This document shows positions 11,930 through 55,370 of a stretch of DNA of 64,000 nt, in pieces (position 1 is the stretch's first letter; each line of letters begins with the position of its first letter). The translations under genes were made by a program, and so were the position numbers. The stretch is taken from contig NZ_JAINZO010000001.1 in NCBI RefSeq assembly GCF_020179605.1, forward strand, positions 1,772,799 through 1,836,798, written 5' to 3'. Origin of the DNA: Geomonas agri. GTDB lineage: Bacteria; Desulfobacterota; Desulfuromonadia; Geobacterales; Geobacteraceae. The notes below the pieces were generated by a model. It did not search any database, was not told where the DNA came from, and was given only the letters and a program-made list of their open reading frames with translations.

Positions 11930-12241
11930 ATGAAGATACCCTACGCCACCAAGACCACGTCGCTACTCTCCGGGATGACCCTCGCGGTGATGCTTTCCAC
12001 CGGGGAGCACCTCACCGGCCCGGTGAGCGCCCTCTGCACCATCACCGGCGCCATCTGGTTCCCGGTCTCCATCGCCGTCTTCGTCCACGGCAAGCAAAGC
12101 ATCGAATACAAGATCCAGTCGCTGCGCGGGGAGCGTCCCTACATCGACATCCCCAAAGACATCACACCGCGGGCGCTGGTCTGGTTCTCTTCGACGCTGG
12201 CCACCGCGTGGCTCCTCAGCCTTTTCTACCAGCACCCATAA
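11930..12241 (+). CDS. Small membrane protein, unknown function
   Basis: A 103-residue protein that I do not recognise. It has two or three hydrophobic segments (about residues 10-25, 32-52 and 82-98) with a basic, hydrophilic loop containing QSIEYKIQSLRGERPYIDIP between them. The ATG lies 8 bases after AGGGGGCC. It is divergent from the YcbK-like gene and is followed at once by a strong terminator, so it is a single-gene unit. Confidence 0.65.
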   Translation: MKIPYATKTTSLLSGMTLAVMLSTGEHLTGPVSALCTITGAIWFPVSIAVFVHGKQSIEYKIQSLRGERPYIDIPKDITPRALVWFSSTLATAWLLSLFYQHP

Positions 12242-44138: not shown

Positions 44139-44462
44139 TATAGCAACTGGTCAAGGAAGGTGTCAAGGCCAAAGAGGCAATATCTAGAACAACGTTAGGA
44201 GGTGGAGCAGTGCAGGTGGTGCATAGTAGATAGTGAGGTAAATCCCCTTTGTCTCCCCTTCGCAAAGGGGAGGACGCGGGGCGCGGGCGGCGCTTGGTGG
44301 CAGAGATGAATGGCTGATCCAGCTTCCTGTACAAACAAATCCCATCTAGTTCTGGGAGCCACATTATTTACAAATCAGGCTCCGGCACTAACTGTTCGCG
44401 CTACTTTGAATACTTACGACAAGCAACGCTCTGACAGGGCCACGCCCCCTGACAAACAAGCC
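44139..44462. other. Gene-free stretch upstream of tRNA-Val
   Basis: No credible gene. It includes a hairpin-forming piece (CCCCTTTG / CAAAGGGG around 44249-44272) of the sort scattered in this genome as a repeat, and otherwise nothing I can name. Confidence 0.5.
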
Positions 44463-44503: not shown

Positions 44504-44578
44504 GGGCGATTAGCTCAGCGGGAGAGCACTGCCTTCACACGGCAGGGGTCACTGGTTCGAACCCAGTATCGCCCACCA
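44504..44578 (+). tRNA. tRNA-Val (anticodon CAC)
   Basis: Acceptor GGGCGAT / ATCGCCC, D stem GCTC/GAGC, anticodon stem CTGCC/GGCAG with loop TTCACAC (anticodon CAC), T arm CTGG-TTCGAAC-CCAG, then ACCA with CCA encoded. It is 75 nt long. The 3' part from 44530 on is the attachment core of the phage-derived element. Confidence 0.97.
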
Positions 44579-44584
44579 TGCAAA
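44530..44584 (+). repeat. Left attachment site (55-bp core, within tRNA-Val)
   Basis: Identical over 55 bp to 55146-55200, from TGCCTTCACACGGCAGG through the CCA end to ATGCAAA. It covers the anticodon loop, T arm and acceptor of the tRNA. Confidence 0.95.
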
Positions 44585-44589
44585 TCATA

Positions 44590-44616
44590 GGGTTAGCCAT
44601 ATCGGCTGACCCTTTT
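44590..44616 (+). terminator. Replacement terminator for tRNA-Val carried by the element
   Basis: GGGTTAGCC / GGCTGACCC (one G-U pair) with loop ATATC and TTTT, 11 bases after the tRNA CCA. It lies inside the element, so after insertion it takes over from the native terminator now at 55206-55237. Confidence 0.75.
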
Positions 44617-44619
44617 GCG

Positions 44620-44643
44620 TTTCACAGCGCACACACAGCGCAC
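44620..44643. repeat. Left arm-type site of the tRNA-Val element
   Basis: TTTCACAGCGCACACA then CAGCGCAC, matching 54994-55017 at 23 of 24 positions. Each copy contains the GCGCAC motif twice, 11 bp apart (one helical turn), as expected for an integrase or excisionase arm site. Confidence 0.7.
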
Positions 44644-44667
44644 TCTACAGAAGCCCCGTTTCCCCCC

Positions 44668-44703
44668 AAAAAAAGAAAAGGGCGTCCGCTACTACCGACG
44701 CCC
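44668..44703 (-). terminator. Terminator after the tape measure gene
   Basis: On the minus strand GGGCGTC / GACGCCC around a ten-base loop followed by TTTTCTTTTTTT, 65 bases past the stop at 44768. Confidence 0.9.
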
Positions 44704-44767
44704 TCCCCTGCTTACTGTTTTGCCTCAAAAGCAGGAATTCCTGCTTTCCTCCCACCGTCCACCTAGT

Positions 44768-47041
44768 TCATGCGTGCCTCCGCATTACCTGCAGCACAGT
44801 CTCTTCGATGGCATCACGCAGCGCAGAGGAAAGCTTGTTGTTGCCCTCCACGGTGACCGGGACGCTGATCGAGGTCTGTGACGGCTCGGGCGCCGGCTGT
44901 TTCGCCATGCCCCTGATCACTTCTGCATATTCCGCCGGCAGGATCATCTCCTTTGCATGGGTCTGCACAATCGGGTTGACGCCAGCCGGGATGTCATACC
45001 CGCCGGCGGCCGACTTCATGTCCATGGGCTTGTACCCGTTCTGAGCCGGCACGGTGCTCGACCCGCCGAATATGCTCCCGAGGGCTCCAAGCCCTACTGA
45101 CGCAAGTGAGGAAAGCGGACCCATGAGGCCTTGCTGCACCGCGATTCGGGCCAAGTCTTTGATCACAGCATCAGCGAACGATTTGAAGTTGGCCTTCCCG
45201 CTGGTGGTGAAGCTGACCAGGGCATCCTCCATGTTGTTCATCACATTGGTGGTGGCGTTGTTTAGTTGCGCGCCGACGTTGGAAGCGGCCTTCGCGTATT
45301 CCTGCAGCGATACGGTCATGCCACCCAGGGCCGTGGTGCTCTGCAGGATCTTCTTCTGCTCGAGCAGCTTCTCGTTGATCCCGTTTATGACCGCCTGTTC
45401 CTGCAGCCTCGCCATGACCGCTTCGGCGCCGTCGCCCTGAATGGAATCGTAAATCGACTGCTGAGCAGCGAGCTCCTGGCCAAGTAGATCGATGCGCTTT
45501 GTTGCAGCCTCACCGGTGCTGATCTGGTAGAACTTTTCCGCGGTGTCCACCAGGGCGAGTTGGTTGTTGATCTGGGCGATAGTGACGGCTTCAAGCTCTC
45601 GGGCTTCTTTGGCGCGGTCGACAATGAGGGGGCCGCCTAGCATCCTGGTTTCCGACGGTCCCGTAAGGCTGTACTTGCCGCTAGGGATTAGTGCCCCTGC
45701 AGAGTCGCCCAGAAGGCTGTAAGGGGATTTCTTCTCGGGCATGCCAAACGGAACATCTAGCGTGCCCTTCATGATCCCCCAGTCTTTCACAAGGGCCTCG
45801 GTCGCCTCGGTGCGCTTCTTCTCTAGCTCATCCGTTTCCTTATTCAGTTTCTGCAGCCATTCGGCTTCTTCTTTGAGCGACTCTTGCTCGCGCCTCCAAT
45901 TCATAAAACCGGGGTCGTTGACGGTGTAGTTGACCTTTTCTTTTTCTGCCTTGGCCAGTGTGTCTAAGTCGACCCGGCTGCCCATAGAAGGCTTGGTGGA
46001 TTTAATACGGTTGCCGTCAGCGTCTAGCCCGACCTCAGAGTTGGCAAGCGTCTGCAGCGCCCTATCACTTTCCAGGTAACGCTGCTCAAATATCTTGTTT
46101 TGTTCGGCCCACCACTTCCCGGTGTCGGTGAAGTTGCCACCAGTCACGGCCCACGCCAACCGGGTCACGCTGCCGCCTGCCTTGTCGGCCAGCATCGCCA
46201 TGCGCGTGATTTCGGCCTCGGTAGAGTTCAACGCTGAAATAAAATTGGGGATGCCTTGGACGGCGATGTCACCGAACGCAACAGCCAACCTTGTGAGGGG
46301 CGGCACAAGCGCGGTCCCGATCTGCACCTTGAGGGATTCGGCAACATCGTCAATGTCCTTCATCGCCTGGCGGTACTTCTTAACCGCTGCTACCTTGTCT
46401 TCACCGAACACCAGGTGCAACTCCTTGGCGCGGTCTTCGGCTTCTTTCATGCCCTCGGAGGTCAGCCGCAGAATTCCCGACAGTTCGCGCCACCCTTTGC
46501 CGTATAGGGCCATTGCCGCGGTGTCGCGGTCTTTACCCTCCTTTAGCCTTTTGAGGTAGTCGTTGACCTCCATCATAACCGACATGGAGTCTTTGAGATT
46601 GCCGTTGCTGTCTTTTATGTCGATGCCGGCTTTAGTAAAGGCGTCCCCGTTCTTGAGAGCTTGGCGGGTGAGCCGGTCGGATGCGCCCACGGCATCATCG
46701 ACCGTAAGAAAGGCATCATCGAGAGCCACGCGCAACACGGATGCCTGGGAAGCAGTAACCCCGAACACCTTGGACAGCTTGGTGACCTCGCCAGCCACTT
46801 CCTTGGTGGTATCAATCATGCCCTTGAACATAGCGCCGCCAGCAAGCACGGCCATGGTGGTGGCGGCTGCAGTTGCGGCGCTCTTGAATAGTCCTTCGAC
46901 AACCTTCATGCCGCCGGACACGTCAGCCTGCATTTTCTTGACGGTGTCCTGGGTGATTCTGTTGGACTTCCCCATGTCTTCTCTAAACCGCGCCATATCG
47001 GCACTAATGGACACAACGAGTTCGCCTAATTGACCAGGCAT
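44768..47041 (-). CDS. Phage tail tape measure protein
   Basis: A 757-residue tape measure of the lambda-H type. The N-terminal segment LGELVVSISADMARFREDMGK and the hydrophobic region AATAAATTMAVLAGGAMFKG are typical, a long helical body follows, and the C-terminal part has NALVSF-like (DALVSFTTSGKANFKSFAD) and AVIKDLARIAVQQGLMGPL, the conserved lambda-type tail tip segment. At about 0.15 nm per residue it would set a tail near 110 nm. Its presence without tail tube or baseplate genes is odd. Its start overlaps the preceding gene by 16 bases, so the two are co-translated. Confidence 0.93.
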   Translation of the reverse strand: MPGQLGELVVSISADMARFREDMGKSNRITQDTVKKMQADVSGGMKVVEGLFKSAATAAATTMAVLAGGAMFKGMIDTTKEVAGEVTKLSKVFGVTASQASVLRVALDDAFLTVDDAVGASDRLTRQALKNGDAFTKAGIDIKDSNGNLKDSMSVMMEVNDYLKRLKEGKDRDTAAMALYGKGWRELSGILRLTSEGMKEAEDRAKELHLVFGEDKVAAVKKYRQAMKDIDDVAESLKVQIGTALVPPLTRLAVAFGDIAVQGIPNFISALNSTEAEITRMAMLADKAGGSVTRLAWAVTGGNFTDTGKWWAEQNKIFEQRYLESDRALQTLANSEVGLDADGNRIKSTKPSMGSRVDLDTLAKAEKEKVNYTVNDPGFMNWRREQESLKEEAEWLQKLNKETDELEKKRTEATEALVKDWGIMKGTLDVPFGMPEKKSPYSLLGDSAGALIPSGKYSLTGPSETRMLGGPLIVDRAKEARELEAVTIAQINNQLALVDTAEKFYQISTGEAATKRIDLLGQELAAQQSIYDSIQGDGAEAVMARLQEQAVINGINEKLLEQKKILQSTTALGGMTVSLQEYAKAASNVGAQLNNATTNVMNNMEDALVSFTTSGKANFKSFADAVIKDLARIAVQQGLMGPLSSLASVGLGALGSIFGGSSTVPAQNGYKPMDMKSAAGGYDIPAGVNPIVQTHAKEMILPAEYAEVIRGMAKQPAPEPSQTSISVPVTVEGNNKLSSALRDAIEETVLQVMRRHA

Positions 47042-47325
47042 TTAGATCTCCTTTGGCCCTTCAGGGCCTTATGCGGGGTGGTATCCCCCTCATACTTCCA
47101 CCAGAGTGACGGCTTTGTTCCAGGGAAGTGTTTCTCCCACCAGGCAAGCACCTGGTCCCGGTGAGCAAACCACAGTTCGCGCTTTTCTTCGGGCATGAGG
47201 AAGAAACGATCTTTCCAAGGGCCGGCCTGCGGGTCGTGTTTGCCGTCACAGAGCCAGTTGAAACACTCGGGGGATGTGGCCGGCGCGGTTCTGCTGCGCG
47301 GGGTGCGTTTTCGGTTCGTCGCCAT
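47026..47325 (-). CDS. Small phage protein between TerS and tape measure
   Basis: A 99-residue protein, Trp-rich and basic at both ends (MATNRKRTPRSRTAPATS; GQRRSKCLVN), with LWFAHRDQVLAWWEKHFPGT in the middle. Not recognised. By position, next to a tape measure, it might be a tail assembly chaperone analogue, but it lacks the length and slippery site expected of those. GGAGGTAGC precedes the ATG, one base after the small terminase stop. Confidence 0.7.
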   Translation of the reverse strand: MATNRKRTPRSRTAPATSPECFNWLCDGKHDPQAGPWKDRFFLMPEEKRELWFAHRDQVLAWWEKHFPGTKPSLWWKYEGDTTPHKALKGQRRSKCLVN

Positions 47326-47326
47326 G

Positions 47327-47647
47327 CTACCTCCCCACCGGGCGGCCCGGCCGATCCTGCAGGGGTTCCAGGTCGAGGTTAAGAGCTTTCAGGGCTGCCA
47401 GCATTGCCGCCCTGGCGTCCCTTTCCACGGTGGTCAAGGGGTGAGCCTTGGCCTGGTCGAAACGGTCCTTCACGGTCAGCCCTTCTTCCGCTATGACGGC
47501 TTGCGCCTGTCTCATTCGGTCAAATGCTTCGAGACCGGTCTGCAGGATCAGGAGCCCGGCTTCATCCTCGATGCCGTACTCGTCGAGCAGCCGTTTCCAT
47601 TGGGCTTTCGCTTCCTTGCTCAGGTGCTTAGGTACTTTGGTTGCCAT
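47327..47647 (-). CDS. P27-family phage terminase small subunit
   Basis: A 106-residue protein with the P27-type pattern: PKHLSKEAKAQWKRLLDEYG, then EAFDRMRQAQAVIAEEGLTV and AKAHPLTTVERDARAAMLAAL, ending in LNLDLEPL. Small terminases recognise the packaging site and guide the large subunit. No large subunit follows, so it would have to redirect the large terminase of another phage to the element's DNA, as small terminases of known satellites do. GGAGGCCAC precedes the ATG. Confidence 0.88.
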   Translation of the reverse strand: MATKVPKHLSKEAKAQWKRLLDEYGIEDEAGLLILQTGLEAFDRMRQAQAVIAEEGLTVKDRFDQAKAHPLTTVERDARAAMLAALKALNLDLEPLQDRPGRPVGR

Positions 47648-47720
47648 GTGGCCTCCAGAATTTTTGAAAGGGTTTCTTGGTTTTGTGCAAGTGTAGGCTC
47701 ACACGCGGTCAGGCGGAACA

Positions 47721-47793
47721 GCCCCCCAGGGATTTACCCTGGTGGGGGGCATTAAAAAAGGCGGAGCCGGGGAGGGGTTCCGGTTCCGCCTTT
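47721..47793 (-). terminator. Tandem hairpins after the capsid gene
   Basis: Two hairpins: 47754-47793 (on the minus strand AAAGGCGGAACCGG / CCGGCTCCGCCTTTTTT, a strong terminator) and 47721-47751 (GCCCCCCAGGG / CCCTGGTGGGGGGC). They separate the capsid gene from the small terminase operon, which therefore needs its own promoter or read-through. Confidence 0.8.
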
Positions 47794-47882
47794 ATGTGGC
47801 CACGCCGCCCGTAACCCCGAGTCCGTGGCTTTGCTGCACTTTTCAGGACCGGGGCCAGCACAGGGAGCGCCCCGCCCGAGCT

Positions 47883-49025
47883 TTACGCCGAGATTTTGAG
47901 GGCCTTCACAGCGTTAGAGTCGACCAGCATGGAGCCGGTTCTCTTGGTTGTGTAAAAGTGGACCCAAGGCTTATTAGTCAGGTCGTCCCTGATCATCCTA
48001 GTCCCGATCCTGTCGGTGATGGTATAGGCGCGCTTGAAGTCGCCGAAAAGCACCGCCAGGGCGTTTGCCGCGACGCTGGGGAGGTCGTCGTTAACAACGA
48101 TGTTGTAACCCCAGAGCGTTGCAGGCTTGTCGGCTGTCATCGGCTGGTAGATGTAGTCGCCTTCCACCGCGTTTTTAAAACCGCGGACGGCCTCGAGAGT
48201 TTGCCTGTTCATCATCCACACAGCACCGGGCAGATACTCGCTCTTGAGGGCGTGAACCATCTTCAGCAGGCAGTCTGCAGGCGAGACAGTAGCAGAAGCG
48301 GCCACAAAGCCGTTGGCGTCGCCAGAGACGATGTGCTGTATGGTCCCGAATGGCCTGGTCGCATCGGCGGTCGCTGCAGTCGGGTAGGCGAGAATCCCTT
48401 TCGGCTTCAGTAGGCCGTCGCCATTGGTAAAGGCGGTGTTTTCCTGGCCAGCGAACTCAAGGGCAACCTGGTTGGTGAGATAGCCGGACATATCGAAGCC
48501 GGCATCGTCCAGGAGCTGCTGGGTGACTGCCGGGTTGGCATAGATCTCACCCCAAAAAGGAGTGAGGGCTTTGAGGGTGGGAGTACCCGTCTCCGGCCGC
48601 TCCTGCGTTTCCCCGACCCAGCCTGAAGCCGGCGCCCCGGTCGAGACGAGCTGGGTGTAGTTCGGGGTCGAAACGGTGATCACGTTGGCGACGGAGCGCA
48701 TGGGAGTGGCGTTGCGGGCCAGGAGCAGGATCTGGTTGCCGAGTTCCGACGGGACCGCGTAGCCGCCGTCGGGATCGCTGCCGACGCTCATGGAGTTTTG
48801 GAACTCGGAGAGGGCGGTAAACCTGCCGGTCCTCATGGAGGCCAAGAAGGCCTTGGTGTGCTCGGGGTTGGTTTTGCTGTTTTCAGCGGGGACGCCAGCT
48901 GCCGGCCTGTTGCCCTTGGCCTCGATCTCGTCGAGGCGGGTCTTGAGGGTTGCGACCTCGGCTTGGTGAACCTCTTTGAATTCAGTGACCGCTGCGTTGA
49001 GTTCGTCAAAATATTCCTTGTTCAT
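47883..49025 (-). CDS. HK97-fold phage major capsid protein
   Basis: A 380-residue HK97-type major capsid protein. The N-terminal 80 residues are a charged coiled-coil delta/scaffold region (VTEFKEVHQAEVATLKTRLDE); the capsid fold begins near SVGSDPDGGYAVPSELGNQI, with GWVGETQERPETGTPTL, ANPAVTQQLLDDAGFD, ENTAFTNGDGLLKPKGI and FGDFKRAYTITDRIG all typical. The delta region is normally cut off by a prohead protease, but none is encoded here, so a helper's protease would be needed or the region stays. A 75-base gap separates it from the basic small gene upstream. Confidence 0.95.
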   Translation of the reverse strand: MNKEYFDELNAAVTEFKEVHQAEVATLKTRLDEIEAKGNRPAAGVPAENSKTNPEHTKAFLASMRTGRFTALSEFQNSMSVGSDPDGGYAVPSELGNQILLLARNATPMRSVANVITVSTPNYTQLVSTGAPASGWVGETQERPETGTPTLKALTPFWGEIYANPAVTQQLLDDAGFDMSGYLTNQVALEFAGQENTAFTNGDGLLKPKGILAYPTAATADATRPFGTIQHIVSGDANGFVAASATVSPADCLLKMVHALKSEYLPGAVWMMNRQTLEAVRGFKNAVEGDYIYQPMTADKPATLWGYNIVVNDDLPSVAANALAVLFGDFKRAYTITDRIGTRMIRDDLTNKPWVHFYTTKRTGSMLVDSNAVKALKISA

Positions 49026-49093
49026 TTAGTGATCCTTTGCTACGTCCGTAGCCAGGTCCGTTTCTCAACGGTCCGTTTGAGTTGGGATAACTG

Positions 49094-49264
49094 CTATTGG
49101 TGCTGCCGCTTGGCTCCGGCCTTTTCCAGCATCCCGCTGGGCTTCCTTCCGCGTTCCCACCAGCATCCCGCTGTGAGCCTGTTTCTAGAAGCTTCTGCTT
49201 TTGCCTTGCTGTGCCGATAAGCCCACTTTGCTTTAACCGTGTTTCTGCGCCTCTTGGAGCTCAT
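49094..49264 (-). CDS. Small very basic protein
   Basis: 56 residues with about 16 Arg and Lys (MSSKRRRNTVKAKWAYRHSK...). AGGAGGTGTGCC directly before the ATG is a near-perfect ribosome binding site, and the start overlaps the end of the preceding gene by 31 bases. It lies just upstream of the capsid gene; a nucleic-acid-binding or scaffold role is possible but not shown. Confidence 0.6.
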   Translation of the reverse strand: MSSKRRRNTVKAKWAYRHSKAKAEASRNRLTAGCWWERGRKPSGMLEKAGAKRQHQ

Positions 49265-49772
49265 GGCACACCTCCTGGAGTTGTTTCTGGAAGTCCTCGC
49301 CGCGCCAGCCGGCCACCGTGTCATGTTTCAGCCCCATTGCCAGCGAGGTGATCAGGCCACCGGAGATCACCACTTCCTGGCGCAGCCCTTTGCCGATGAA
49401 GGAAACCGCGGTGAATTCCTGAAGGTCACTGTCGGCGTACTCGATCCTGGCCAGCGGAAAGTCCTGGCAGATCCTCACGGAGGTGACAGCAATACGTGAC
49501 GGCTCGGCGCCGAGTATGTACTGCAGCGAGATTCCGAAGAGCCCCAGCTCACCCTGAAGCCCGCCATACACAAGAACATGCTGGGCAGCGTTTGCCGGGT
49601 CCGGCGAGGTGGCCCCGATCAGCAGGGTTGCCGTCTCTTTGGCGTTGAGGGGGATGTCGTCATGAGTCGGCAACATGCCAGCGCCCTTGAGGGCGTCAAC
49701 CACAGCGGAAAGGTGCCCGGGGTCTGCACCCTGGCCAACGAGTTTCGATTTTGCGCGGGAAATGTTTAACAT
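49233..49772 (-). CDS. Hypothetical phage-element protein
   Basis: A 179-residue soluble protein, not recognised. It has helices at the N terminus (GHLSAVVDALKGAGML) and a segment NAKETATLLIGATSPDPANA, then a beta-rich part. It sits where many phages encode a prohead protease, yet shows no serine-protease pattern that I can see. The ATG at 49772 after AAGGAGGAGCACTCAT is preferred to the frame start at 49799. Confidence 0.65.
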   Translation of the reverse strand: MLNISRAKSKLVGQGADPGHLSAVVDALKGAGMLPTHDDIPLNAKETATLLIGATSPDPANAAQHVLVYGGLQGELGLFGISLQYILGAEPSRIAVTSVRICQDFPLARIEYADSDLQEFTAVSFIGKGLRQEVVISGGLITSLAMGLKHDTVAGWRGEDFQKQLQEVCHELQEAQKHG

Positions 49773-49859
49773 ATGAGTGCTCCTCCTTTTGACTAGCACG
49801 GTAACATAGCGGCCTCTTGTTCCGGCGACGCTGTGGAGAATGTGGAGAATAGCGACAAT

Positions 49860-50048
49860 TTATTTTTCGTTTTCGTGGTCCATGATGAAAGCCTCGGCTG
49901 AATCGACGTAGATCCTCACGCCCTTACGGCCCCCCAGGCGGAAGCCGTCAAGCACCCCGTCATTGAAGAGCCGGTACACGTATGAGGTGCTGCAGGCGAG
50001 ATATTCCGCGGTCTTTCTGGTGTTCATCGCTAGGCGTTTGCCGCACAT
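49860..50048 (-). CDS. AlpA/excisionase-like HTH protein
   Basis: A 62-residue protein with a MerR-like winged HTH of the AlpA/excisionase kind: NTRKTAEYLACSTSYVYRLF then GFRLGGRKGVRIYVDSAEAF. Such proteins act as excisionases or activators in phages and satellites. AAGGAGAAATCAAAT before the ATG at 50048 sets the start; a GTG six codons earlier is weaker. The TTTGATT-box region lies immediately upstream. Confidence 0.8.
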   Translation of the reverse strand: MCGKRLAMNTRKTAEYLACSTSYVYRLFNDGVLDGFRLGGRKGVRIYVDSAEAFIMDHENEK

Positions 50049-50050
50049 AT

Positions 50051-50128
50051 TTGATTTCTCCTTCACGTTTGATTTTTCTTTGATTTAGCTGTGTAACTAT
50101 TTAAAATTATAGATGTTAAAATCAAAGA
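50051..50128 (-). promoter_or_regulatory. AT-rich operator region with TTTGATT boxes
   Basis: TTTGATT occurs at 50051, 50068 and 50080 on the plus strand and inverted at about 50120; the outer pair TCTTTGATTT (50077-50086) and AAATCAAAGA (50119-50128) form perfect 10-bp arms 32 bp apart. The 150-bp gap is very AT-rich against its surroundings and precedes the HTH gene at 49860, so it is a probable operator and promoter region. Confidence 0.55.
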
Positions 50129-50198
50129 GGAAAATTTTGGCTGAGTGAGACTTGGCGCGGTTTCCGAAAACGCGGGCCGCAAGGACTTGACCCCGCCC

Positions 50199-50390
50199 CT
50201 ACAGTTCCCCGCCCGCCATGGCCGTTTCCAGATCATCAAGCATGCCGAACAGGGTCGCCTGGGCCTTGTCGTGGTTGCCTCCCTGCAGCGCCACAATGGC
50301 GTCGATGCACGCCATGTGGTACAGCAGCTCGTTGGTGACGGGTTGATCCGCCGGCTTGCGCCTCTCTTCCAGGTTGACGATCTTGCTCAT
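50199..50390 (-). CDS. Small helical protein
   Basis: 63 residues (starts MSKIVNLEERRKPADQPV, then YHMACIDAIVALQGGNHDKA). No known family. The start overlaps the stop of the 48-residue gene upstream by four bases (ATGA), with AGGGAAG in front, so it is translated in the same operon as the RepA-like gene. Confidence 0.65.
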   Translation of the reverse strand: MSKIVNLEERRKPADQPVTNELLYHMACIDAIVALQGGNHDKAQATLFGMLDDLETAMAGGEL

Positions 50391-50533
50391 TCACTTCCCT
50401 CCTTCGATGGGGTGTAGGTTCGTCGGCCGCCTGTTGCTTCCCCGCGCTTCTTCTTCACCGCCTCGAGCAGGTTGGCCATAAAGTTCTGGTCTTGATCGGT
50501 CGCGGGGAGGGGTAGGCTGTCTTTCAGTTCCAT
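50387..50533 (-). CDS. 48-residue coupled small protein
   Basis: A short gene easily missed by length cut-offs: MELKDSLPLPATDQDQN followed by FMANLLEAVKKKRGEATG and a basic end. The start lies inside the 3' end of the RepA-like gene (overlap of 10 bases) with AAGGAGG ten bases upstream, and its stop overlaps the next start (ATGA). Overlap on both sides with good signals supports a real gene; function unknown. Confidence 0.6.
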   Translation of the reverse strand: MELKDSLPLPATDQDQNFMANLLEAVKKKRGEATGGRRTYTPSKEGSE

Positions 50534-52167
50534 GTGAGCTGTTCCTCCTTGGGAGTTTCGGGACACTGTGCGGGTGCGGGACCCCCCTTATACCCCCCTG
50601 CGGCATTGCCCGCATGCCCGCAAAGCGGGGTGCGGCCATTGTGCGGTGCTATCTGATATTCAACATTGCCCGCATGCCCGCATGCTGATGAATCCAGGCT
50701 TTTGGGTGTCAGCACCCGTACCTTGTGACGGTCTGCGCGGGTAATGTAGTCTTCAGTTATTTCTCCCATTGCCCGCAACCGCTCCACATGCTTCCAAAAA
50801 CGCTTTCTTTCGGTGTTCCCGCCCAGCAGACTTTGGGGGAATTCGTCTTGCACTGAGAGCACATGATATGCAGTCCGCTGGCCTGACGTCGCCGCAGGCA
50901 CCGGGCCCGTCGCCGCTATGAGCGCAGCCATTATGCCAGCCTGCTCCTCACGCTCTCTGTAGTTCCTGTCGAAGTGGCTTTCGCCCTGGTCGACAGTGCC
51001 CACAAACATCCCCGCTTCGACGTCCCAATTGAAACGCATTGCCCCGTCTGTCGGTCCCAAGTTGGATTTTTGCAGCTCGAGAATCAGATCCCCGGTGCGC
51101 TCCGGGCCACCCCCTTCTTCGCGTTTAGCTTCCGGGAAGAGATACCAGCGGGCACGGACGGAGTTATGCCAGCCTGTGGAGCCAGAATAGCCCTCTGTTG
51201 TCCTTTGGCCGGCAGCAGGCTTCGACACATGGCCGACCAACACAACGGCCCCATCTTCGGGCGGAATAAGCGCCAGGAGTGCGTTGATGTAGGCTTTGAC
51301 CTCAGCCCGGGCATTTTCGTTGCCGTCGTACGTGTCGCTGATCCCGTCGACAAAAAGAACTTGGGAGGCGTGGTCCTGGATCATTTTGGCCAGGTGGCGG
51401 TAAGCGTCGGTGAGGGGATGGGCGTTGCGTCCTGGCTGGTAGAGGATACTTTCGCGCCCCACAAGGTCCAACACGTCGAGTTTGCCGGCTAGGTCTGCCA
51501 GTTGGATCCCAAGGTAAGAACAGATCCTGTTGAGGCGCCAATGCAGCACACCTTCCCGATCTTCGCACGACAGGTACAACACGCGCCTGCGTTCTACCTG
51601 TAAGCCAAAGAAGGGTAGCCCCAGGGCGACGCACACGGCAAGGACCAAGGCCAATGCGGACTTGCCTATGCCACCATGCCCGGCAAAGAGAGTCGCATAT
51701 CCACATGGCAGCCAGTCTTTCATGATGAACTTTTGGGGATACGGCTCGGATTGGGACAGTTGTACCAGGTCGACTGGGTCAGGCCAAATTGTGGCCCCAG
51801 TTTGGTCAGCACGGGCCAATTCGCTTATCCTGGTAATAGCAGTTGCCCAAGGGACCAAACTTTGGCCAGCGTTGGTTGCTTCCGTCAGTCGAGCGCCCAG
51901 CAACCGGACTAGATAATCCGACAGGGGCCTGTAGGTGTGTTCTTCCTCAGTGAGTATTGAGACGGCGATGGGGTCTAAACCCGCGCCTTCCACTATTTCG
52001 TCAATGCTGCGGTCTTCTGTGTCTTTGGCAAAGTACGCGGCGAGCCGGAAATAGATGGCATCCCCTTTGAAAGTTCCGCGGGGGACCAGCGAAAAAAGCT
52101 GTTGTCTCCGCACTGGCTTGGTGATGAAAGCCACAGAGAGCGCAGCGCGCATGAGGGGTTCGCTCAT
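50524..52167 (-). CDS. RepA-like hexameric helicase / AAA ATPase
   Basis: A 547-residue replication-type protein. After about 150 residues of unknown fold comes a RecA/RepA-type ATPase: Walker A AGHGGIGKSALALVLAV, RRRVLYLSCEDREGVLHWRL, Walker B QVLFVDGISDTY, and VVLVGHVSKPAAGQRTTEGYSGSTGW. The C-terminal 130 residues (REREEQAGIMAAL ... NTERKRFWKHVERLRAMG) look like a winged-helix DNA-binding part. It would unwind the element's origin after excision. The start is coupled to the upstream gene by ATGA; the open frame reaches nine codons further. Confidence 0.85.
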   Translation of the reverse strand: MSEPLMRAALSVAFITKPVRRQQLFSLVPRGTFKGDAIYFRLAAYFAKDTEDRSIDEIVEGAGLDPIAVSILTEEEHTYRPLSDYLVRLLGARLTEATNAGQSLVPWATAITRISELARADQTGATIWPDPVDLVQLSQSEPYPQKFIMKDWLPCGYATLFAGHGGIGKSALALVLAVCVALGLPFFGLQVERRRVLYLSCEDREGVLHWRLNRICSYLGIQLADLAGKLDVLDLVGRESILYQPGRNAHPLTDAYRHLAKMIQDHASQVLFVDGISDTYDGNENARAEVKAYINALLALIPPEDGAVVLVGHVSKPAAGQRTTEGYSGSTGWHNSVRARWYLFPEAKREEGGGPERTGDLILELQKSNLGPTDGAMRFNWDVEAGMFVGTVDQGESHFDRNYREREEQAGIMAALIAATGPVPAATSGQRTAYHVLSVQDEFPQSLLGGNTERKRFWKHVERLRAMGEITEDYITRADRHKVRVLTPKSLDSSACGHAGNVEYQIAPHNGRTPLCGHAGNAAGGYKGGPAPAQCPETPKEEQLTWN

Positions 52168-52412
52168 AACGCCCCCTGTTTGAGGTCCTTGCACTGGCCC
52201 ATGATCTCACCATAAGCTTGCATGATCTTCTTCGGGGGGATGGGGAGCACCTGGCCGGACTCGTAGGCTTCAAGGAGCTTCCTGACTGGGGGACTAGACT
52301 CGTATGATGCGGTGCAGCGGGGACTACAGAGTTTGAAGATGGTGACGGGGTGGCCGGCTGCCTTGATCACAGCCGCGCGTTTCATATCTCGGTCATTGAT
52401 TGCAGGGTACAA
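52164..52412 (-). CDS. Small phage-element protein
   Basis: 82 residues, starting with TTG five bases after GGAGGACAC. It contains two Cys and a His-Pro pair (AAGHPVTIFKLCSPRCTASYE) and a helical C terminus. Not recognised. Coupled to the RepA-like gene by a four-base overlap. Confidence 0.6.
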   Translation of the reverse strand: MYPAINDRDMKRAAVIKAAGHPVTIFKLCSPRCTASYESSPPVRKLLEAYESGQVLPIPPKKIMQAYGEIMGQCKDLKQGAL

Positions 52413-52478
52413 GTGTCCTCCTTTTCCACGCGTGTGCGCAGCACGGCGACTTCTCGCGACGTGGCCTTTGTTTTGGGT

Positions 52479-52685
52479 TTATGCTGCTTCTTTCAGTGCC
52501 ATCCTGGTAAGATGCCTCCTGGTCTTCACGATCTCGGCGCGGAGTGCAACGTTATCGGACAAGCTGTCGTCCGTACTCCAGAGGTTTACGAGGTGCTCCA
52601 ACAGTTCTAGCCGCTGCCTGCAGTTCAGGTTCTTGATTCCTTGGCTAATCCGTTCCATTTTTCCGTCCCTTTCTTCTTTACTCAT
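52479..52685 (-). CDS. Small helical protein
   Basis: 68 residues, entirely helical and charged (GIKNLNCRQRLELLEHLVNL). Not recognised. TAGGAGGACACGAGG before the ATG gives a strong ribosome binding site. Confidence 0.6.
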   Translation of the reverse strand: MSKEERDGKMERISQGIKNLNCRQRLELLEHLVNLWSTDDSLSDNVALRAEIVKTRRHLTRMALKEAA

Positions 52686-52743
52686 CCTCGTGTCCTCCTA
52701 GTGTGCCCTCAAGGGGCGGATTTCCGGCGCTGGGCCGGTTTGC

Positions 52744-53001
52744 TTACGCGGTGTGCCGGTTCGCTTCGAGCCACTGGTCGAGATCGTCTTTGAGGTAAAG
52801 GATTTTCCGCCCCAGTTTGACAAAAGGCGGAGGCGGTAGCCTGTTTGCCCGGCGCCCCTCCATACGGCCTTGACGGAGGGAGGCCCGAGAAATTCCAAGG
52901 TAGTGCGCAGCTTCCTCCTCGGAGAGCCCACGCCTGCCGATCGCCGGTTGGTCATTTCTGGGATTGGTTGCTGCGGTGAGATTGGTTGATATGTGTGACA
53001 T
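52744..53001 (-). CDS. Excisionase/AlpA-type HTH protein
   Basis: An 85-residue protein with an HTH_17-like domain: GLSEEEAAHYLGISRASLRQ, then PPPPFVKLGRKILYLKDDLDQWLE. Start: the ATG at 53001 after GGGGGTATTTCT; the frame is open another 41 codons without sense. As the first gene of the leftward early cluster it is a good candidate for excisionase or activator. A second such gene lies at 49860. Confidence 0.82.
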   Translation of the reverse strand: MSHISTNLTAATNPRNDQPAIGRRGLSEEEAAHYLGISRASLRQGRMEGRRANRLPPPPFVKLGRKILYLKDDLDQWLEANRHTA

Positions 53002-53194
53002 AGAAATACCCCCATGACTCGTTGTTGATTGTTGGTCATAGGAATACACCTGAGGTGCTTCAGGTATCAAACTGGATAAGAGAAGTAAATGAAACATGCA
53101 CCAAGTGTAACTGCTTGATATCATGTTAAGCGAAAGCTGTAGGTGGGGACAATTTTGGTATTTTTTGAGGGGGAGTCGGTGTAAAAGTGGACAA

Positions 53195-53725
53195 CTATTT
53201 TTCTATCGTCAAAGCGATTATTGACTTCAATCTGACGAGGCTAACTACTCTATCTACTGTTTTTTTATAATATTTTCTAGTCCTAAGCCTATTATTGTTA
53301 GGTTCTATTCGGTATTGTGAACCGTATATGTAGTGTTCCATGAAATGTTCTAAGCTGACTCTTAGATGTTGTGCAGTAACAATGCACCTTGCTTTTTCAA
53401 CCAAAGTTTCATCTATTTTATTTAGTTCTAATTCAATGAGCCAAAGCAATAAAATATTGGTTGTAGACAAACACCTGTGTGGTTCGCGCACTATTGGGAT
53501 AGTATTTAGTTTATGATCTTGGTTCAAATATCTTTTCAAAGTTTTTTCACTTATGCCTAAAAACCCTGCAATCACCGGTTTTCCTACTAGCAATTTGCCA
53601 AGAGCATTATACAAAGTAGCGGTAGGAAACCCATCATTACTTAATAAATCAGTTACATGGTAGAAATTTCTCAGGCCCAAATCATCCAACTCAGCCAAGT
53701 TTTTCACCATCACGAATTTACTCAT
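53195..53725 (-). CDS. AT-rich helical protein translated with the integrase
   Basis: A 176-residue protein of unknown function. It is rich in Leu, Asn, Lys and Ile; a possible HTH reads KPVIAGFLGISEKTLKRYLN. The gene is far more AT-rich than its neighbours, a sign of separate origin. Its ATG lies two bases after the integrase stop with GTGAGG shared across the join, so it is expressed with the integrase. In satellites and prophages this slot often carries immunity, defence or control genes, but nothing in the sequence proves such a role. Confidence 0.65.
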   Translation of the reverse strand: MSKFVMVKNLAELDDLGLRNFYHVTDLLSNDGFPTATLYNALGKLLVGKPVIAGFLGISEKTLKRYLNQDHKLNTIPIVREPHRCLSTTNILLLWLIELELNKIDETLVEKARCIVTAQHLRVSLEHFMEHYIYGSQYRIEPNNNRLRTRKYYKKTVDRVVSLVRLKSIIALTIEK

Positions 53726-53727
53726 TT

Positions 53728-54981
53728 TTACCTCACCAATTTGGCGACGGCCGCGGCCTTATGCTCGGGTGCAAGATGCGCGTACCGCAGTGTCATTTTC
53801 AGGTCGGAATGGCCCAACAATTCGCGTACTGTGTTGAGATCCACCCCAGCCATGACTAGCTTGCTGGCGAAGTGGTGGCGCATGTCGTGCCAATGGAAGT
53901 CCGCGATGCCGGCGGCTTCGAGGACGGCCCCCCAGGCTTTGTTGACATTGTCGAGGACTCCACCTTTTCGGCCTGGAAACACCAGGGTTCCCGCGGATTG
54001 CTTTTTCCAACCGGCCAAGGCATCCAATGCCGGCGAATTGAGAGGGATGTATCTGGTTTTCCCGCTCTTTGCCGTCTGGCCACCAACGGTTATCAATGCC
54101 CGGTCGAGGTCCACTTTTTCCCATGTCAATGATACGAGTTCGCCCCAGCGCAAGCCGGTATTGAGGGAAACAAGAACCATCGGCTTGAGGTGATCGGCAA
54201 AGGATGCCGCGGCCAAGTCAGGGAAAAGAGGATAGCCTCTGTCTCTCCGCCATTGGTTTGCGTTGCTACGCTCTGCCCTGGCCCTGGTCTCGCGTTCGTC
54301 AAGAACCCTCATAAGGTTTTGCTCTTCGTCCTTGGATAAAAACCGCACTCGTGAGCCGTCATCGACCTTTGAAGGCTTCACTTTGGAAAGGGGATGGTCC
54401 TGCAACGCCTTCCATTCGACGGCCTTGGAAACCAGCGCCTTTAAAGCGGTAAGATCCCGGTTGACGGTGGAGGGTTTCAAGCCTTCCTTTAACCGGCGGG
54501 TCCGCCACTTCTCCACGTTCCAGGCAGTGAGGTTTATCAGGTCGGTGCTTAAAAATTCTGCAAAGCAGTTTCTTAGGCGGTTGACAGTCGCTTTGCCGTC
54601 CTTTTGGTTGGCTTCGGCCCATGGAGCGTACACGTCATCGAGGAAGGATTTGAAGGTGTGCTGTTTGGCGGTCTTTTTTTCTGCTGCAGGGTCGACCCCG
54701 TCTTTGACCATGCGAAGGATCTTCTCGGCTTCGTCTCGGGCCTGTGCGGGAGTGAACAAGGTATGGCGCCCGATCCTGGCCATGGTTTGTTTGCCATTAG
54801 CCAGCCGGTATCTTGCGACGTATATCTTGCCGCCTGGTTCCACCCTGCCATCGGGCTTCACTATGTCAGGGTACACAATGAGTCCGAAGCCTTTGAGTTC
54901 GGTATCCCATATTTCAAACTTCTTCTCTCCTGCCTTGGTCTGCTTGCCCCTCAGAAGTTCGACGCCTATTTTGGCTTTCAT
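53728..54981 (-). CDS. Tyrosine recombinase / integrase of the tRNA-Val element
   Basis: A 417-residue P4-like integrase. The N-terminal DUF4102-type arm-binding domain (FEIWDTELKGFGLIVYP ... YRLANGKQTMARIGRHTLFTP) precedes a core-binding domain (about 105-200) and the catalytic domain with NTGLRWGELVSL (Arg), WHDMRHHFASKLVMAG (HxxR) and LLGHSDLKMTLRYAHLAP (H and Tyr). Start: the ATG at 54981 after AAAAAGGGGGGCGGC. It lies beside the right attachment site with an arm-type repeat in its leader, so it may repress itself. Confidence 0.95.
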   Translation of the reverse strand: MKAKIGVELLRGKQTKAGEKKFEIWDTELKGFGLIVYPDIVKPDGRVEPGGKIYVARYRLANGKQTMARIGRHTLFTPAQARDEAEKILRMVKDGVDPAAEKKTAKQHTFKSFLDDVYAPWAEANQKDGKATVNRLRNCFAEFLSTDLINLTAWNVEKWRTRRLKEGLKPSTVNRDLTALKALVSKAVEWKALQDHPLSKVKPSKVDDGSRVRFLSKDEEQNLMRVLDERETRARAERSNANQWRRDRGYPLFPDLAAASFADHLKPMVLVSLNTGLRWGELVSLTWEKVDLDRALITVGGQTAKSGKTRYIPLNSPALDALAGWKKQSAGTLVFPGRKGGVLDNVNKAWGAVLEAAGIADFHWHDMRHHFASKLVMAGVDLNTVRELLGHSDLKMTLRYAHLAPEHKAAAVAKLVR

Positions 54982-54993
54982 GCCGCCCCCCTT

Positions 54994-55017
54994 TTTCACA
55001 GCGCACACATAGCGCAC
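54994..55017. repeat. Right arm-type site of the tRNA-Val element
   Basis: TTTCACAGCGCACACA then TAGCGCAC, one base different from 44620-44643. It overlaps the integrase leader, 13 bases upstream of the start codon. Confidence 0.7.
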
Positions 55018-55145
55018 ACCATGAATATATCATAGGGGATTACAGTAAACAACTGCGAACATGGAAACAGCAATATCACACTGATTTTACACGTATTTCA
55101 CGTTCACCATCTTTTACCGTTGTTTACCAGCTTTTTGTAAATAAT

Positions 55146-55200
55146 TGCCTTCACACGGCAGGGGTCACTGGTTCGAACCCAGTATCGCCCACCATGCAAA
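55146..55200 (+). repeat. Right attachment site (55-bp tRNA-Val 3' fragment)
   Basis: Exact copy of 44530-44584. It lacks the acceptor 5' strand and D arm, so it is not a working tRNA. Confidence 0.95.
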
Positions 55201-55205
55201 CAACC

Positions 55206-55237
55206 AAGGCCAAGTCAATCGACTTGGCCTTTTTTTT
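55206..55237 (+). terminator. Displaced native terminator of tRNA-Val
   Basis: AAGGCCAAGTC / GACTTGGCCTT with loop AATC and a T7 run, five bases beyond the right attachment repeat. It is in the tRNA's direction and must have followed the tRNA directly before insertion. Confidence 0.88.
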
Positions 55238-55370
55238 ACCTCCCATCAACAACTAATTTCCGCTAATACTCCTCATCAGTACTCGCAGCTTCTCCGTTAC
55301 GAACATTACGCACACCCCCCCCCAATAGCAACAACTTCTTTTACCTTCAGAATCCACCATTTTCTCAATT

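Follow-up and report, generated by a model that had tools for sequence, protein, structure and literature searches.

A compact element at a tRNA-Val gene of Geomonas agri, probably a phage satellite with its own small terminase, capsid protein and tape measure protein

Phage satellites are known to alter heads and packaging and, since March 2026, tails as well, in one group, the phage-inducible chromosomal island-like elements (PLEs). The PLEs build chimeric tails with a tape measure protein (TMP) of their own, and some capsid-forming phage-inducible chromosomal islands (cf-PICIs) carry a putative tmp (PMC12987554). Ccm of SaPIbov5, a Staphylococcus aureus pathogenicity island (SaPI), is a homologue of the major capsid protein (MCP); its delta domain is 87 residues long, that of the helper protein 128, and the two proteins are 19%–24% identical. 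Ccm takes the pentamers, yields small T=4 heads and is unable to form a capsid alone (PMC8569155, PMC5052747). Here we describe an integrated element of about 10.6 kb at a tRNA-Val gene of Geomonas agri (NCBI RefSeq assembly GCF_020179605.1, contig NZ_JAINZO010000001.1), lying in a stretch of 64,000 nucleotides (forward-strand positions 1,772,799 to 1,836,798) called the window. This element is probably a helper-dependent phage satellite, one that would supply the choice of DNA through its small terminase (TerS), perhaps together with an orphan protein, p99, the head size through its MCP and the tail length through its TMP, and would borrow the rest. An earlier note on this DNA had held a tape measure in a satellite to be unusual, a view which the PLEs and cf-PICIs correct.

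All listed genes of the element are on the minus strand, in the order integrase, a 176-aa protein, AlpA-like protein 1, two small proteins, an AAA_25 ATPase, two further small proteins, AlpA-like protein 2, p188, MCP, TerS, p99 and TMP (Table 1). Pfam and PHROG scans of the open reading frames (ORFs) of the element bore out the earlier statement that MCP, small terminase and tape measure are its only recognisable virion genes, and neither library gave a prohead protease or connector family. The PHROG scans, which covered 15 ORFs, added only weak similarity of two helix-turn-helix (HTH) proteins to profiles of terminase small subunits (E 0.005 and 0.009). The intact integrase and RepA-like ATPase reported earlier were confirmed; of two AlpA-like proteins, one stood and the other matched the same family only below its curated cut-off. 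p99 is a further relevant gene which the earlier note did not list.

The 55-nt direct repeats bounding the element are exact copies, as had been reported, with a spacing of 10,616 bp, and the left copy overlaps the 3' part of the tRNA-Val (cac) gene. When the window flanks were joined without the element, they aligned to an empty site in two relatives, G011 (247 nt, 89%) and G020 (177 nt, 89%), indicating a clean insertion; together with the repeats, these empty sites show integration in tRNA-Val by the element's own integrase. In both relatives the tRNA-Val segment is oppositely oriented to the flanking genes as compared with the window (window 44280–44375 and 55237–55369), so a small inversion has occurred around the site. 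A strong terminator-like hairpin at 55206–55231 follows attR and by alignment also adjoins the tRNA in the relatives' empty site, indicating a host terminator which was displaced, the element having its own hairpin just inside attL. The number of matches in promoter and terminator scans was not above that in shuffled sequences, and the Rfam scan found the tRNA alone.

Large terminase (TerL) and portal genes were sought in the 18 loci of the TerS-p99 family described below and in three more (L045, L047 and L053). A tblastn search with nine queries (E ≤1e-3) found neither at any of these 21 element loci, some of which are partial contigs, and the same queries gave matches in three of four phage control loci. 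TerL_ATPase (PF03354) was matched in none of the 10 element-bearing genomes, and the portal family PF04860 in one of them, on a contig other than that of the element. PHROG 2, a TerL profile judging from its matches here, gave matches in 12 of 14 genomes, mostly weak and partial and none inside an element; because it matches weakly in most genomes, only matches with E < 1e-20 were taken as TerL (G018, G027, G036, G106 and G320). No resident helper was recognised in the genome of the window, G000, where the best PHROG 2 match was weak and partial (E 5e-6), and the helper may therefore be a virulent or absent phage.

Separate TerS and p99 searches of 141 Geobacterales genomes returned the same seven genomes and nine loci, with the two genes adjacent every time. 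The p99 profile gave matches in 4 of 395 sampled genomes of the phylum (one being the window's own; few candidates were scored per genome), adding four loci in three genomes, at each of which a TerS relative adjoins p99, and IMG/VR scans gave five contigs with both genes (L049, L050, L051, L052 and L058) as well as a short contig, L053, which has TerS and ends soon after. The pair is thus found at 18 loci, of which 13 lie in 10 genomes; the other 5 are on viral contigs, and several of these contigs are partial. An MCP is present at 12 of the 18 (window, L002, L036, L038, L039, L040, L041, L049, L051, L073, L075 and L076), and a TMP is clear at four (window, L002, L038 and L050), probable at L052 (PHROG 2854, 2e-6) and reduced to a relic at L036. 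An HK97-gp10-type protein precedes the TMP in L038 and L050 and occurs in L039 without one, and prohead proteases of three kinds were found in L039, L049 and L052. Members have differing integrases and sites and one common tail-end gene block. The repeats overlap tRNA genes in seven elements (window, L040, L041, L042, L049, L073 and L075), while the target gene of L002 and L036 is one which we take to be DUF1847; of the ten elements whose repeats are 19 nt or longer, eight measure 8.6–10.6 kb and two (L002 and L038) 15–16 kb.

When the window-type satellite MCPs (window, L036, L039 and L041) were aligned with phage homologues, about 28 residues were missing within the N-terminal scaffold region, and since this gap is internal a wrong start codon is no explanation. 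The N-terminus up to the conserved SDPDGG motif, or the place aligned with it, has 83, 87, 74 and 85 residues in the four satellites, respectively, and 100–174 (commonest 111) at 88 of 88 phage MCP loci. The phage set had 80 fetched loci, the best 80 of 588; one contig is repeated among the 88 (L004 = L082), comparison of the last 280 residues leaves 64 distinct loci, and 84 of the 88 have a portal or TerL nearby. Directly upstream of each short-scaffold MCP stands p188, which was found at four loci in 3 of 138 genomes and without a match in 50,697 phage records, the IMG/VR scan or PDB sequences; its single-sequence structure model (pLDDT 40.6) was too low in confidence for use.

The stretch between the MCP and terS genes is 90% identical to that of L036, over 247 aligned columns which extend a few bases into the genes, while the adjoining MCP genes of the two elements have only 60% of bases alike. 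It may be a packaging site, a terS leader, or part of a block recombined with terS. The versions of p99 that were scanned had no match in Pfam, PHROG, NCBIfam or PADLOC, and p99 had none in 50,697 phage records, 72,556 plasmids or PDB sequences, so that these searches did not identify it with any known protein. When an AlphaFold2 model of the p99 of L050 (pLDDT 76.6, pTM 0.75) was compared by Foldseek with BFVD and PDB, nothing matched at E ≤0.001.

The TMP of the window is intact, under purifying selection and mosaic. Its dN/dS against the L002 TMP was 0.18 across 580 aligned residues, with dS, at 1.8, near saturation. The first 470 residues are a 68% match to L002 and residues 478–713 a 51%–55% match to the TMPs of two prophage-like loci of G027. 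In L050 the N-terminus is 65% identical to phage L004 and the C-terminus 49% identical to the G027 locus L043, and the C-terminal part of the L002 TMP has 36% resemblance to phage L009. In phage 80alpha the TMP contacts the tail completion protein, which corresponds to HK97 gp10, through its N-terminus and the tip protein Tal through its C-terminus; the position of the gp10-type protein in HK97 itself is unclear according to the authors (PMC11661146). A family N-terminus with exchanged C-termini and an occasional gp10-type neighbour would suit a TMP that is kept compatible with a borrowed tail.

The families represented suggest how such a satellite would work. The AlpA and HTH proteins would presumably exercise control, and the AAA_25 protein would act as the element's own replicase. 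During growth of a helper siphophage in the cell, the element would contribute the proteins that determine identity and size: TerS, perhaps with p99, would redirect the helper TerL to the DNA of the satellite, the short-scaffold MCP would make or force a smaller head, and the TMP would fix the tail length, its ends having to fit the neck and the tip of the helper. The helper would provide portal, TerL, prohead protease, connectors, tail tube and tip. Tentatively, we would go further and propose a separate satellite family, marked by TerS-p99, that supplies only the specificity and size determinants of the virion, with p99 as a new packaging partner, the MCP perhaps accompanied by p188, the TMP sometimes by an HK97-gp10-type partner, and the C-terminus of the TMP swapped through recombination so that it suits the current helper's tail tip. 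If this is true, a family uniting a head protein, a packaging protein and a tape measure would show control of all virion dimensions to be separable from the structural bulk. Its several recombined versions would provide natural chimeras with which to ask which TMP end has to fit the neck and which one the tip, and the scaffold-domain deletion would be a simple, searchable sequence sign of head-size redirection.

Several observations weigh against a satellite of this kind. No circular form, particle or helper of the element has been observed. The TMP is absent at 12 of the 18 loci, and one further locus, in the window's own genome, has lost it; as most members are without it, the TMP is an optional module. 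Three of the 13 genomic members are also without an MCP. The dN/dS values of TMP, TerS, p99, MCP and p188 (0.07–0.34) are rough because dS exceeds 1 for several pairs, and PF09718 missed the L002 TMP, whose C-terminus differs. TMPs of related phages have 720–1172 aa and those of compact elements 693–835 aa; since these ranges overlap, a shorter tail could not be read from the length, and the idea of shorter satellite tails was unsupported. In the MCP tree L036, L039 and L041 cluster (support 100/95) and the window stands apart; a forced single clade of all short-scaffold satellite MCPs was not rejected by the approximately unbiased (AU) test (p 0.186; 28 of 68 sequences, trimmed to the last 300 residues). 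The tree thus neither shows nor rejects one origin of these MCPs, which may have been captured once or twice.

The element might instead be the deletion remnant of a siphoprophage, its middle lost and MCP, TerS and TMP left over. Its MCP is 52%–55% identical to the MCPs of whole siphophages, its TMP is of phage origin, and decay within the family is real, L036 holding only a TMP relic. We nevertheless regard a remnant as highly unlikely, and reject it as the principal explanation, because relatives at other sites, with other integrases and replicases, retain TerS-p99, often accompanied by MCP or TMP, and neither TerL nor portal was detected in them, which supports the earlier preference for a satellite. 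In addition, the order here is MCP-TerS-p99-TMP as against TerS-TerL-portal-protease-MCP in the phages seen, the genes are under purifying selection, the attachment repeats are exact, and p99 and p188 have no match in the phage records. A complete prophage with the same genes plus the missing ones, which the earlier note had named as evidence that would refute a satellite, was not found by TerS or p99 in the 141 genomes of the order or the 395 sampled from the phylum, where few candidates per genome were scored.

Other alternatives accept a satellite and differ on what its proteins do. It is quite possible, although we lean somewhat the other way, that the MCP is a Ccm-like redirector which occupies some positions, such as the pentamers, in a shell made mostly of helper protein. 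SaPIbov5 Ccm, with its own shortened delta domain, is a precedent (PMC8569155, PMC5052747), the window-type satellite MCPs are similarly shortened, and the window, L036 and L041 have no protease; the window MCP is, however, 42%–55% identical to phage MCPs, far from the distance between Ccm and its helper protein, and this closeness would also permit a full shell. The short scaffold domain fits equally well a shell of the element's own, as the earlier note had proposed, and a size redirector mixed with helper capsid protein. For the TMP, a role in DNA entry as a pilot protein rather than in length, for instance in passing superinfection exclusion, seems unlikely as the reason for its retention: TMPs do act in DNA delivery (PMC5099701, PMC11661146) and satellite and phage TMP lengths overlap, yet such a role is compatible with, and not exclusive of, a satellite that fixes tail length. 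We think it quite unlikely that the TMP is a weapon, entering helper tails and rendering them defective to protect the host or favour the satellite while being unneeded in satellite virions. Satellite and prophage defences are known to target tail assembly, and the TMP is optional in the family; against this, it keeps both phage-like ends and a mosaic C-terminus, as expected of a working part, and the TMP of PLEs is built into satellite virions, its loss lowering transduction by 96%–99.9% (PMC12987554). A helper-dependent satellite remains our preferred explanation.

Table 1. Features of the element and its insertion site, with positions in the window
Feature	Position	Strand	Evidence
tRNA-Val (cac), integration target	44504..44578	+	ARAGORN; Rfam RF00005
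attL, 55-nt repeat copy 1	44530..44584	+	100% identical to copy 2
Terminator-like hairpin just inside attL	44589..44613	+	Consensus match only
Tape measure protein (TMP), 757 aa	44768..47041	-	PF09718 1e-23; PHROG 339 3e-24
p99, orphan partner of TerS, between TerS and TMP	47026..47325	-	Adjoins TerS at 18 loci
TerS, P27-type small terminase, 106 aa	47327..47647	-	PF05119 2e-8; PHROG 83 4e-12; family A2
Intergenic stretch before terS	47648..47882	-	223/247 aligned columns identical to L036
Major capsid protein (MCP), 380 aa, shortened N-terminal scaffold (delta) domain	47883..49025	-	PF05065 1.3e-71
p188, directly upstream of short-scaffold MCP	49233..49799	-	4 loci, all beside window-type MCP
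AlpA-like protein 2, 68 aa	49860..50066	-	PF12728 7e-5, below cut-off; 95% in L036
63-aa ORF	50199..50390	-	ORF only; without PHROG match
59-aa protein	50387..50566	-	60% in L002, 76% in L036
RepA/helicase-like AAA_25 ATPase, 556 aa	50524..52194	-	PF13481 6.7e-37; PHROG 906 2.5e-21
82-aa protein	52164..52412	-	95% identical in L036
68-aa protein	52479..52685	-	Relative in L002, 34%
AlpA-like regulator 1 (true start may be internal)	52744..53124	-	PF12728 (HTH_17) 8e-10, above curated cut-off
176-aa protein, weak HTH similarity	53195..53725	-	Sub-threshold matches only
Tyrosine integrase, 429 aa, intact	53728..55017	-	PF00589 1.6e-30; PF13356 9e-14
attR, 55-nt repeat copy 2	55146..55200	+	Repeat identity; empty site in G011, G020

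From its position the 176-aa protein is perhaps a repressor. Towards its 3' end the ATPase gene contains a 19-nt sequence in two identical copies at a distance of 60 nt (50604–50622 and 50664–50682), which are perhaps iterons of a replication origin. The wider gene content of the family was surveyed with 212 ORFs of at least 85 aa from 19 loci, 80 of which corresponded to element proteins already known; of the 132 others, 100 were scanned. The families considered were 25 of the 41 matched in Pfam and 25 of the 103 matched in PHROGs, so that rare families may be unseen. L036, a second family element in the window's own genome (G000 contig C2), encodes a secreted-looking multiheme cytochrome with six CXXCH motifs (L036:10567–11883) between p99 and the TMP C-terminal relic (12016–12213); occupying the place of the TMP, it may be a respiratory gene carried by the satellite as cargo. 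A type IIG restriction enzyme-methyltransferase (MmeI-like) is encoded at L050:6833–9952, on the same contig as TerS-p99-gp10-TMP. The compact element L045/L046 (G018 and G024) has an integrase, AlpA-like genes, an S49 peptidase, a D5-like primase and a 693-aa TMP, with no TerS-p99 and no window-type MCP recognised, and is perhaps another type of TMP-bearing satellite. L047 (G040, beside tRNA-SeC) is a short integrase-to-TMP stretch with a TMP of 749 aa and no other virion gene recognised. L044 (G027 contig C350) is a region that bears a transposase and encodes a head/protease-type protein and a 1172-aa TMP, and is followed at once by opposite-strand genes; this locus would be either a truncated transposable phage or a compact counterpart that is also transposable.

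Satellite TMPs as such were already known, whereas this TerS-p99 family, its gene set and p99 are new; in open PubMed Central papers no account was found of a satellite from Geobacterales that combines MCP, TerS and TMP. The element resembles Gram-negative PICIs in its integrase at a tRNA, AlpA, replication gene and size within about 10–15 kb, and P4-like elements in being compact and integrative with AlpA-like control and its own replication protein. P4 sets its head size through Sid and Psu and, to our knowledge, is without MCP, TerS and TMP, unlike this element. Part of this P4 background is given in PMC4936722. With cf-PICIs the element shares an integrase, AlpA-type control and its own MCP, and some of them carry a putative tmp (PMC12987554, Extended Data Fig. 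10 legend). The definition of cf-PICIs requires a complete set of head and packaging genes, portal and TerL among them (PMC10690885); neither portal nor TerL was detected here, and the element falls outside that definition.

Pac-type SaPIs also have their own small terminase, which in both cases is expected to redirect the helper TerL, but their capsid size is set by CpmA/CpmB scaffolds and not by an MCP, and the TerS family and p99 differ. SaPIbov5, a cos-type SaPI, similarly lacks portal and protease and carries an MCP homologue whose scaffold domain is shortened; it uses the helper cos site whereas this element has its own TerS, and no TMP is described for SaPIbov5 in the portions of the papers cited. 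PLEs of Vibrio cholerae (TMP, TAC, BhuB) likewise combine a satellite TMP with helper tail parts, in genomes where the helper is not resident. They differ in hijacking and remodelling the helper capsid protein, in encoding TAC with the TMP and in being satellites of a myovirus; this element has an MCP and TerS, and no TAC family was matched in its Pfam and PHROG scans, PLE sequences not having been compared directly. By analogy, the element would combine packaging in the manner of SaPIs with redirection of the head as by Ccm and a change of the tail as in PLEs.

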